From positions 4,023,150 to 4,087,149 of the forward strand of contig NC_133238.1 in NCBI RefSeq assembly GCF_040436345.1: a DNA stretch of 64,000 bases, written 5' to 3'. This document shows positions 38,101-44,100 of the stretch, in pieces (within the stretch, counting starts at the first letter, position 1; each line of letters begins with the position of its first letter). Origin of the DNA: Pagrus major (taxonomy: Eukaryota; Chordata; Actinopteri; Spariformes; Sparidae). Made by a program: the position numbers and the translations under genes. Below the pieces are notes generated by a model. That model was not told the origin of the DNA. It saw only the letters and a program-made list of their open reading frames with translations, and did no database searches.

Positions 38101-41100
38101 TTAACCAGTGACTGGACCTTCAGACACAGGGGACTTACAACCACTGGAGACACAGTCACTGCACTCAGGTGATCTTGCACTTAAATCATTATATATTTTT
38201 AATTAATTGTCATTACTTTGCAGAAATCTGTTGCCACTTTGACATGAAAGGGTTTTTTTTAATGATTGTCAAAAAATCCAATAAAAGAGGAAAACACCCA
38301 GGGGATGAATACTTTTTATACTGTACCTATGCAGGACGTTGAGGACTTTCCACCCCTCCACCACTCCACTAGTGGTTCTAACGTTCTGAGCAATGGTGGA
38401 GACAGCGCTCAAAATGGCAGCTCCGTCATCTCTCTGCAGAGCGCTGCTGCCCACAACCACTACAGGACGCTTGGCAGCTGACAGGACCTGAAGGGGAGAG
38501 GAAAAATTCAAGTAAAAGTTGCCAGAAGTTCATCTGAGAACTGCATTAAAAAGTCACATCAGTTCATAAATCAGCAGCAAAATTCTCTCCAAACGTCCTC
38601 CGAGCGTGTTCATTACCTGGCAGAAGGGGTGTGTGCCATTAGCCAGCTCCTTCAGTACTGACGTTTCCTCTCCCAGGTGATCGTAAGTGTAGCTCAGATC
38701 AACTTGGTGACCCACCATGGCAACACGCAGCTCATTGTGGAGCCAGCTGATAGAGGAAGAGGAGCAAAAGAGAAAGGCAGAGTTACATAAAACTCTGATA
38801 TGAAAGCACAAGTAACAAAGTTTTCAATTCTCAAAAAGAACAGCTTAACAAGAGCATGCCATCATCCATCACCGTCATGTTTTGTTTACTATTCAACATC
38901 ATTTAACGCTATAGGAATTAGTTTGACATTTTGGAAAGTACCCTTTTTAGCTTTATGGTGAATAGTTAGATAAGAACACCAGAGATGTTCACAAGTCATT
39001 TTTTGCAAGTCCAAATCAAGTCTTAAGACTTTAGCTTAAAGACTTGAGAGTTGACTTGGACTCTGAGCTAGAGTCCAAGTCAAGTCTCAAGTTTCTAATG
39101 GTTGTAATGAGCATTCTATCATCTGCTCTCCACTCTATCCCTCCACTCCTTGGGAGAAAAGTTAGCGTCAAGTCCTGCCTTCACTTTATTGCAGTGGAGA
39201 CGTGGACAACAATTGCCTGAGGGAAGCTTTTAACTACTTTGGGTGAAAATGCAAACCTTTGAGTTTACCTCTTGCGTATTCTGGCGTTGAAGAGTGGGGC
39301 TTCGTAGCGCGGGTTGGTTCCTACTAGCAACAGCAGGTCACACTCCTCGATGCCAGCGATGCGAGAGTTCAACAGGTAGTTGGAGCGTAGGTCAGTTCTG
39401 CGGAGAGATAAAGAAAACAGCGTCAGCCGGTGAAGTTGGAGATACACTACACACCTAAAGAGACTGGTGGAACACTATACATTATATTATATTAAGTCTT
39501 ACCCTGCGCCCGCCATAGGGAAGAGCTCCTCGGTGCAAAGGTTTTCTGACTCGAGTCTGTTCAGGAGGTCTTTGAGGGAGACCAGAGCTTCAGCGTCGGC
39601 CATTCCTCCTGCAATAACTGCTACCTCATTGCCCTGAACACTCTGCAGCTGCACACAGCAAACACACACACTTATTTATGGATACAGGCTCCAGTATGAT
39701 AACACAACTAAAATACCCCAAGAGGTGCCTAAGTTGTCAACAATATAATGGACAGAGAGAAATTTCATAAATAAAAAGACATGAATATCACATGTTTGCT
39801 GTCAAAGAGAAATAAACAGACAGATCGAGTAAGCAAACACACACTTACTGCTCCAGCAACACGAGTGAGAGCATCCTCCCAGGTGGTTGGGGTCAGCTGA
39901 CCTGAAGCATCCTTCACCATTGGTTGGGTCAACCTCTGCCTCTTCAGACCGTCATATGCAAACCTGAGGACACATATTTTGGGATTTTTGATTCTTTGGT
40001 CAAGGTACATATCAACATATCTATATATTTATAATTGGATAAGTCAAATCTGATGTTTCTAACAAAATCACACATTCATTTTAAAGACTAGTGGACTGGG
40101 TTTCTCTTCAATTCAATCTGAAGCATGTTAGGGTTAGGGTTACACATTTTTAAGCCTTTCAGTCAGCGTGTGGCATCTCCTAAAGCCAGTTCTTCTGACT
40201 TGTGTCTGGATTTTACCTGGTCTTGTCAGAGATCCATTCTTCGTTGACGTCTTCGTTTAGCCTGGGCAGCACCCGCATCACCTCACCACCTCTTGTGCTC
40301 ACCACAATGTTGCTGCCCACAGCATCCAACACATCAATGGACTCTGTTTTCCTGCAAAGATAGCAGAAGTTGAAGCTAAAGGAAACAGTATGACGGAATC
40401 AGACACAAAGGTGAACACTAACTGACCAAAATGCTGAACAAATCACTTCAAGAAAGCTCATATTATACTCCTTAAATTTAAGCAACAATAATTCTCTACT
40501 ATGGTTCTGTATGGTGATAGCACTTGTTGCATTAGCTTAAGTGAAGTATCAAACCCTTTCATACCTGGTCTCCCATGGTCGTGCGGTGAAAGCGTAAGGT
40601 TTGGAGGTAAGGGCTCCCACAGGACACACATCGATAACGTTGCCTGAAAGCTCTGACATGAACATCTTCTCCACGTATGTCCCGATCTGCAGGTTGTTTC
40701 CTCTTCCTGTTGTTCCCAGGTCTTCAATACCAGCAATTTCACTGGCAAAACTGCATAAAATACACAGAGGAGGAATGAATAATGAGCTGTTCAAGGATCT
40801 CATATATTTCACCACTTGAACTGACAATAGCAGATTACCTTTTACTCCTGAAGGATATAAATATGGATGTTTCTGATGCACTCACCGGTGCAACAATTAG
40901 TGGATTAAAAGATTGGTTGATCAAAAGATATATAGTTGCCAACTTTTTTGATAATTGATGAATTGTTTCAGTCACTTGTTTCAGTCGCTTCTCAAGCAAA
41001 AGTAACAAGCAAAAATGTCAAACATTTGCTGGTTCCAGCCTGTTAAATATGAGGACTTGCTGCTTTTCTTTTGCATTGATGATAGTAAATAAAGAGTCCT

Positions 41101-44100
41101 TTGGTTATGGGCTATTGGTTGGACAAAGGAAGCAACTTGAAAACATCATGTTGGGCTCTGGGAAATTGTGATGAATATTTTTCACAATTTTTTGGACATT
41201 TCAAAGACTAAATGATTAAAGATAAAAAAAAAAAAAATCACCAGATTAATCAATAATGACAATAATTGTTAGTTGCAGTCCTACTCACCGGACACAGCGT
41301 GTGCACTGGATGCAGCGGGTCATGATGGTTTTGATGAGCGGCCCGATGTTTTTGTCCTCGACTGCTCTTTTCCCTTCTGAGAAACGACTACGGTCTGAAC
41401 CAAACTGCATGGACTGATCCTGGTAGGACAGCAGGCAGGCAGAGTGTCAAAAGGACATAAAAACTGTATTTTGACAACTTTTGCAAATATTATTCAAATG
41501 ATTGTTTTGGTGAGGTAAAAAATGTCTCAGGGGCATATATTTAAAAACCTCAAATCAAGATGCCACTAACGATGAGTGTATAGCTGTATTCAGAACCGCC
41601 TACCAGATACTGCCGATAAAAGCTGTATGCAGTATGTATGACATACTGCATACTGCTTTTTATAGTAGCAAGCAGTGTGAAACTGTTAAATCGATTTATT
41701 TTGCAGTATGCCAGGCTTGCTGGTTGGAGATGGATAACGCTATCTGAAACAAGATTCACCATTCTTGTGTTGCATTACTTCACTGCAAATGTACAGAGAG
41801 TTGGAGCTTATTCAGTGGATAAGTGATTTATTTTGCTTTGGAAGCATAAAATTATCTTTGTTATTCTTTTTTTGATCAAACTGGATACCTTGCTTGTTTG
41901 CTGACTGGTGGCATTTTTGCTTGTGTTAATGCCCGCGCTGGTTTGGTCAACATTTATCCCTTGGCAATAACAGCATAATCTTAATAAAACATAAAAAATG
42001 TAATGCAATGACAGAATAACATGGCAGAAACTAAACACATTTTGGGGCCTGGCTTTCATCTGCCAATGTAGCTGAAGTGTCTGCTGCCTTGGCTGCAATG
42101 CTCTGTGTGAATGGCTGGCTGGCTAGTTACCCTCATAGGGGCTTGTGCAGTAGAGTCTCGCTTCTTCTTAACTCCAAAAATGGTGACGCAAATTTTTGAT
42201 CTCCCATTAATTCTCATGAAATCACACACGAAAACTGTAAAAACAATTTTTTAAAAATCCTGACAGGTTGTTGTGACCATTTCAGGGCTTTGCATTCTGG
42301 GACACAGTACATGTAAGGACCGATGCATTATTTTTTCAAAACAGCACTTTGGCCAAATCAGTACATACTGCTAGTATAGTAGGCGGTCTCAAAAACATTG
42401 TATAACTTTTCTAATTTCAGTGAACTGACCCTTTCACCTCCATTTACTAGTTTGGTTACCTGCAGGTCACACTCTCCTCCCTGATCACAGATGGGGCAGT
42501 CCAGTGGGTGGTTGGCCAACAGAAACTCCATCACTCCCTCTCTGATGTCAAACACACATACAAACACACAAATCAGTCTACTTATAGTTATTCACACTTT
42601 GGGGACATTTAAAAATTTGACTTATGTTTAAATCATATTTGAATATTTAAATTTGTACCTGGCTTTGCGTGTCTTCTCTGAGTTGGTGAGGATGTTCCAC
42701 CCCTTCATGACAGGCATGGCACAGGCTGCCACCGGCTTAGGAATACACACATCAATTAGACCAGTATTTCTCAATGGAGGCGGCACCCCCTTAGTAGTTC
42801 ATCTCTTGTTTTCTTAACCACCTTTACTATGCATACATGGGTTAATGATTAAGAGTTACCATTGGTCTGCTGATATGGTAAGTTCATACATTCAGTCAGA
42901 AATGTTTTTTCAGAAATTCACAGTTCCAGTTTTAGAGCACTAAGAGCATCCTCTGTATGGAAGTTATTTTTGGCAATTATAAAAATTTAAAGCACAAATA
43001 GAATAAAAAATAAATAAACTTAAAACAAAAAGAAAATTGAAAAAGAAAATTTTAAATGTAAAATGATAATCTGAAAATGTAGACTAGGGTGAGTAAATGA
43101 AAAAAGTTAAATTTACAATGCAAATACCGAAATGGAAACGCTAAAACTGAAAGCATTTGTAAAGGTGAAATTATAAATGGCTTTTATGTTCTTGATGTGC
43201 CTGATTAATGACAAAACAAAATAAAAATCAGGAAAAAAGAAAAAAAATCATGAAAGGCAATTGAAATAAGGGAAACATAAAATGTGAAACTGAAAATGGG
43301 AAATAGTTAAGCTTAAATGGAAATGTTTTAATTAAATCAAGTGGAAATAATCAGTGGATCTCAGCAATACATATAACAATTTCTTTTTATTTTATTATAA
43401 TATGTTTTTTCCTTAATTTTGCAATACAGCTGTCATGAAAATGAGTAAAATCAATCTAAAAGAAATCTATGAATGTAACTTATGAATGAACAACTCAACT
43501 CATTCCTGTTGATTAAAAATCTGTTATTTGGCAATCAATTAAATGCTTTTTAATGCTTTCTAATGAGATGACACAATAATAACAATAGAAACAAATGAAT
43601 AAATAAAATTATATAATAATAAAGATACATTAAATATGATAAATAATAGCAAGATTAATAATCATAATTATTAACAGTTTTAATCATCAACATTCAGGGA
43701 GGACAATTAGCCTAAATTTTATTTGCTGGTGGCAGTAAGGGACCTGGATAACGGATAGGGGGGCACTGGCACAAAAAAGGATGAGAATCACTGGATTAGA
43801 CGATAGTACTGTTAAGTTCTGGTAAATTCTATGCAAAGAAGGCTAGTTTAATTGCAGTGTTCTTTGTTCCATTTAATGCCAGTGTTCATAAAACTTTTTA
43901 TGAGTAAAATTCAAGGATTTTTCAAGCACTATCAAGTTACCAAAACCTAAAATTTCCAGACTCTCGAAACCTTTATCTTCACGTCTAAAATTGTTATATA
44001 TGCAATTGCAAAATATAAACTTTACATAATTTCTTTATACCCACAACAGTCAATGTATACTATCAGTTTGTTTGATTTAACAGCTTGATTGCATGTTGAT

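Follow-up and report, generated by a model that had tools for sequence, protein, structure and literature searches.

The window (the whole stretch of DNA analysed, 64 kb) carries on its minus strand ndufs1, the gene for the 75-kDa subunit of complex I. Fifteen exons were modelled which, when joined with the upstream of the two donors described below, gave 638 codons without a stop; the model lacks both gene ends, and with them the 5' part of the coding sequence. Query residues 1-638 were colinear with residues 2-644 of 8zo8_S1, a mammalian NDUFS1 (1227 bits), with one five-residue gap suggesting that the true start of the exon at 39633 is probably 15 nt further upstream. The exons after the first modelled one (n = 14) measured 77-186 nt, and 7 of the 14 modelled introns were shorter than 250 nt, the shortest being of 105 nt.

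The intron of interest lies between a 131-bp exon (41419-41289, minus strand; phmmer match to NDUFS1 chains, E about 2e-23), followed by a GTGAGT donor and preceded by an intron of 1040 nt, and the next exon, of 186 bp (40750-40565, minus strand; NDUFS1 match alone, E about 4e-34). The 131-bp exon ends in ...TGT GTC CG, encoding C-V-R, with the arginine codon split 2+1 and its third base coming from the next exon. The intron preceding the 131-bp exon contains a palindrome, GTATGCAGTATGT-ATG-ACATACTGCATAC, seen by eye at 41625-41653.

The exon/intron junction of the 131-bp exon reads CCG|GTGAGT (donor positions -3 to +6), and an identical copy was found 403 nt downstream. The coding-strand 9-mer (CCGGTGAGT) occurred at these two places only when both strands of the 64 kb were searched; on the forward strand it forms a 9-bp repeat (ACTCACCGG) at 40880-40888 and 41283-41291, 403 nt from start to start. 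A preliminary description of this DNA had read CG|GTGAGT as the end of the exon plus the start of its intron and had placed two identical donors 403 bp apart, and both observations were confirmed: the GTGAGT of the upstream donor occupies 41283-41288 and that of the downstream (second) donor, the same as the first from -3 to +6, occupies 40880-40885 (both minus strand). The latter opens the putative remainder of the native intron, 135 nt long (40751-40885, minus strand), which ends in the acceptor TTTTATGCAG. Donors and acceptors were scored with an approximate matrix built from textbook frequencies. Both CCG|GTGAGT donors scored 10.1, the second best value among the 15 donors of the gene model, and 22 of the 7748 GTs in the window scored at least as high, both copies included; since they are identical from -3 to +6, the two donors would score alike in any nine-position model.

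The same 9-mer recurs within the next 1 kb at 1.7% of window positions, so the repeat by itself is modest evidence of an insertion; what counts is its location at a splice site beside an end resembling a terminal inverted repeat (TIR). Between the two copies lies a putative hAT-like inserted element of 395 bp (40889-41283, minus strand), AT-rich (32% GC, measured on 394 bp), whose exon-side terminal repeat, TAGGACTGCAAC (41272-41283, minus strand), was identical at 10 of 12 positions to the TIR of an intact element at 59742-60105. This agreement is obtained when the element starts at the T at 41283, and falls to 2 of 12 in the register of the preliminary description, which had named ACTCACCG as the duplicated octamer. 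That octamer is present twice (40880-40887 and 41283-41290), but because of the difference in TIR agreement the duplication is most likely CTCACCGG, one base over. In this favoured register the element would span 40889-41283 and share T 41283 with position +6 of the upstream donor. The exon-side copy of the duplication then occupies 41284-41291 (CCGGTGAG on the coding strand, donor -3 to +5) and the intron-side copy 40881-40888, and both carry CCG|GTGAG, a putative supply of splice sites. At the other end, a terminal repeat remnant, TGCAAC (40889-40894, plus strand), is inverted and flush with the duplication; the six outer TIR bases are absent, perhaps through a small later deletion. The 8-bp target duplication of the hAT superfamily is present, the repeat itself being of 9 bp and the 8-bp register being derived from TIR similarity. 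As in a MITE, the element is short and has no long ORF (395 bp, with a longest stop-to-stop ORF overlapping 40889-41283 of 69 aa). Thus, from the hAT MITE insertion originally proposed, the donor-bearing duplication, the lack of a long ORF and the hAT-like exon-side terminus were retained, and the register of the octamer was corrected.

Other hAT-type elements were sought in the window with a strict test (8-mer repeats 100-1500 nt apart, flush with inverted termini that agree in at least 10 of 12 bases). Four pairs passed, and 20 Markov-simulated windows gave three altogether. The four were the intact element at 59742-60105 (12/12; duplication GTATGTAT, perfect 12-bp TIR TAGGGATGCAAC), an element at 9210-9620 (12/12; duplication CATCCAGT, 12-bp TIR TAGTGTTGTAGT), a longer element of about 1.4 kb at 1222-2658 (11/12; TAGGGGTGTAAC, duplication TGTGACAC, TIR pair TAGGGGTGTAACGG/TAGGGATGTAACGG), and a pair at 22897/23131 (10/12) which may be a chance match. 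The element at 9210-9620 appeared by eye to be rich in repeats like AAGACCGAGACC. The first three all begin with TAG, and hAT termini follow a (C/T)AG rule; the 8-bp duplication together with a TIR beginning in TAG fits them to hAT. These three elements favour, for the ndufs1 insertion, the register one base over from that of the preliminary description.

By the strict test, which asks for a flush duplication and agreement at 10 or more of 12 TIR bases, the ndufs1 element is not recovered, one of its ends being incomplete. A looser test, an 8-mer repeat accompanied by an inverted match of 6 bp within 6 nt, does recover it, but 22 pairs qualify in the window (each overlapping register is counted separately, so this element appears twice, once in each of its two registers); the 20 simulated windows gave 6-21 pairs each, so the looser test by itself is not above chance. 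When the two 70-nt ends were locally aligned, 173 of 1000 shuffles scored as high, and sequence comparison revealed no convincing internal likeness to the 59742 element. The hAT label accordingly has three supports: the duplication, a good terminus on the exon side and a partial one at the other end.

These results bear on whether there was an insertion at all. The 9-bp repeat could have arisen by coincidence or through duplication during local repair, with the 395 bp being ordinary intron, and the background recurrence of 9-mers, the incomplete TIR and the absence of a significant alignment between the ends all agree with that. Nevertheless, we give next to no credence to this explanation, because the repeat falls exactly at a splice site and directly abuts a 12-mer that agrees with the 59742 TIR at no fewer than 10 of 12 bases; such 12-mers occupy 8 of 127,978 window positions, and the reference element's own ends account for two of these. 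An insertion is argued for by the 9-mer present at both ends only, by the exon-side end with its 10 of 12 TIR matches, and by TGCAAC, inverted and flush. Evidence weighing against it comprised the incomplete TIR, the ends aligning like shuffles, the looser test at chance level and the lack of another copy in the window.

No second copy of the element was detected in the 64 kb by BLAST, which returned the element itself, an internal palindrome and short matches (best E 0.006). Pattern scans gave 0, 25 and 0 loci in viral contigs and 0 and 9 loci in genome contigs; the matches in the 34 scanned records were mostly the searched pattern itself and were set aside. The best 20 matches of a BLAST search of the element against all 34 records were short only (best E 0.008 over 21 bp). 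Rfam returned one match, to CrcZ (E 0.01), which at 19.1 bits lay below the cut-off of 95 and was rejected.

The explanation that we hold to be likely is that a hAT-type insertion duplicated the ndufs1 donor, and that the upstream donor is used, the element forming extra intron and the protein staying unchanged. A non-autonomous hAT-type transposon would have inserted into the 5' splice site of a pre-existing ndufs1 intron, the pre-existence of which is suggested by the 135 nt of intron and the native acceptor that follow the second copy. Donor positions -3 to +5 would have been copied through the staggered cut and +6 rebuilt by the T at the end of the element, so that the exon kept a complete donor; the displaced native copy would have become the second identical donor, 403 nt downstream. 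With the spliceosome using the upstream donor, the intron would have grown from 135 to 538 nt with no change in the protein, and any leakage to the second donor would produce a 534-nt exon with a stop directly after C-V-R. That the insertion is real and neatly placed is very likely, and it is probably neutral. If the reading is right, it illustrates how an essential splice site can survive a direct hit by a transposon: a donor is kept on each side through the duplication, and the terminal T of the element restores the last base.

The two donors have very different consequences for the protein. Use of the upstream donor would give an intron of 538 nt, an exon of 131 nt and an intact modelled protein. 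The downstream donor would give an intron of 135 nt and an exon of 534 nt, in which the retained sequence starts with G TGA, giving CGG TGA, an in-frame stop directly after C-V-R. It was originally claimed that use of the second donor would add 403 nt and shift the frame; this was not borne out, as translation would stop before any frameshift is reached. The stop falls after C-I-Q-C-T-R-C-V-R and leaves 154 of the 638 modelled residues. The three cysteines before it correspond to C176, C179 and C182, and the next exon holds a cysteine at 226 (mammalian numbering, counted from alignments). The preliminary description had numbered the cysteines of this region C180/C183/C186. These four residues are, we assume, the ligands of iron-sulfur cluster N4, in which case the second-donor stop precedes the fourth ligand of the same cluster (C226). 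A transcript with this stop would probably be a target of nonsense-mediated decay.

We consider it highly probable that the upstream donor is the main site. It is favoured by the intact 638-codon frame, by the typical size of a 131-nt exon (a 534-nt exon would be an outlier, the others being of 77-186 nt) and by the choice of the upstream donor in minigenes with two equal donors, where, according to PMC9225289, it was chosen exclusively in an exon-defined construct with flanking introns of 365 nt. The same study describes a preference for shorter exons in donor competition, and a preference for the downstream donor in the SS and LS classes (PMC9225289). LS is read here as a long upstream and a short downstream intron, and second-donor use would give introns of 1040 and 135 nt; the short distal intron thus favours the second donor, as in the LS class, and argues against our main reading. 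The ndufs1 locus is like those minigenes in having two identical donors competing for one acceptor, but it is natural and endogenous, with an exon of 131 or 534 nt and an intron of 538 or 135 nt.

It is possible, though we are inclined to doubt it, that both donors are used measurably, the second by intron definition, with the resulting C-V-R-stop transcripts being degraded and ndufs1 output slightly lowered. The identity from -3 to +6 and the donor score, second of 15 in the gene, would allow this, and the second donor is nearer the acceptor (135 nt), in a gene where 7 of 14 introns are below 250 nt, the intron-definition range given in PMC9225289; the downstream preference of the SS and LS classes points the same way. 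However, it would need the definition of a 534-nt exon, the equal-donor minigenes of that study used the upstream donor exclusively under exon definition, and selection would be expected to act against losing an essential subunit of complex I. It is very unlikely that the second donor persists as part of a functioning switch, in which exon or intron definition alone would decide between the identical 5' splice sites and so set the share of productive ndufs1 mRNA via the stop after C-V-R. Judged from its sequence, this endogenous locus pits exon definition against intron definition with donors of the same strength. If the main reading is right, it would offer a natural test case in which equal donors compete, exon length favouring the upstream one and intron length the downstream one.

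A further arrangement would be a poison cassette exon within the element, with the first donor spliced to an acceptor at 41207 (81-nt intron) and the second donor spliced to the next exon, yielding an exon of 322 nt. The site there, TTTAG after a T-rich tract, has a score of 8.7, against 8.8 for the genuine acceptor of this intron (same approximate matrix), several yTnAy branch-point matches lie upstream of it, and the product would stop soon after C-V-R. We regard this arrangement as extremely unlikely: 16 AGs lie at least 60 nt past the first donor, so that such a score would arise by chance in about 26% of cases, and an intron of 81 nt would fall below the 105-nt minimum of the modelled introns. 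On the same matrix, the highest acceptor score in the stretch separating the two exons belonged not to the modelled site but to TCCTTCAGG (first exonic base 40847); lying 38 nt after the second donor, that site is probably too close for use with that donor. RNA folding from exon to exon was not more stable than in shuffled sequences (z 0.48; 12 of 20 shuffles folded at least as well), so RNA structure gives no argument for donor choice.

For hAT elements, 8-bp duplications and TIRs of 5 to 27 bp are described (PMC3517528). With hAT MITEs such as Mar and with the 59742-60105 element, the ndufs1 element shares an 8-bp duplication, a length of a few hundred bp and, at its exon-side end, a putative short TIR beginning with (C/T)AG; unlike them, it lacks six bases of one TIR and sits on a splice donor. 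Among the matches listed by title or abstract, no report matching the element's terminal repeat was found, and no vertebrate donor duplicated by a target duplication was described, which is weak evidence.

Target duplications supply splice sites in introners (Gozashti et al. 2022, PMC9860276). Introners are like the ndufs1 case, as read here, in that the target duplication of a DNA element supplies a 5' splice site and splicing can remove the element (PMC9860276). Introners differ in creating new introns and in being multi-copy, whereas the ndufs1 element appears to have lengthened an existing intron and was seen in one copy; no pattern of introner gain is reported for species whose populations are expected to be small, e.g. 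vertebrates (PMC9860276). The ndufs1 intron does not appear to be a new intron in this sense, since the element is followed by a separate 135-nt stretch of intron that ends in an acceptor of its own. Maize Ds is a hAT element with an 8-bp duplication whose exonic insertions are spliced via sites at the ends of the element; the ndufs1 element resembles it in hAT membership (as assigned here), 8-bp duplication and interplay with splicing, Ds being a plant element and exonic. In zebrafish, a survey attributed 109 exons to DNA repeats (PMC2911107), so effects of transposons on fish splicing are ordinary.
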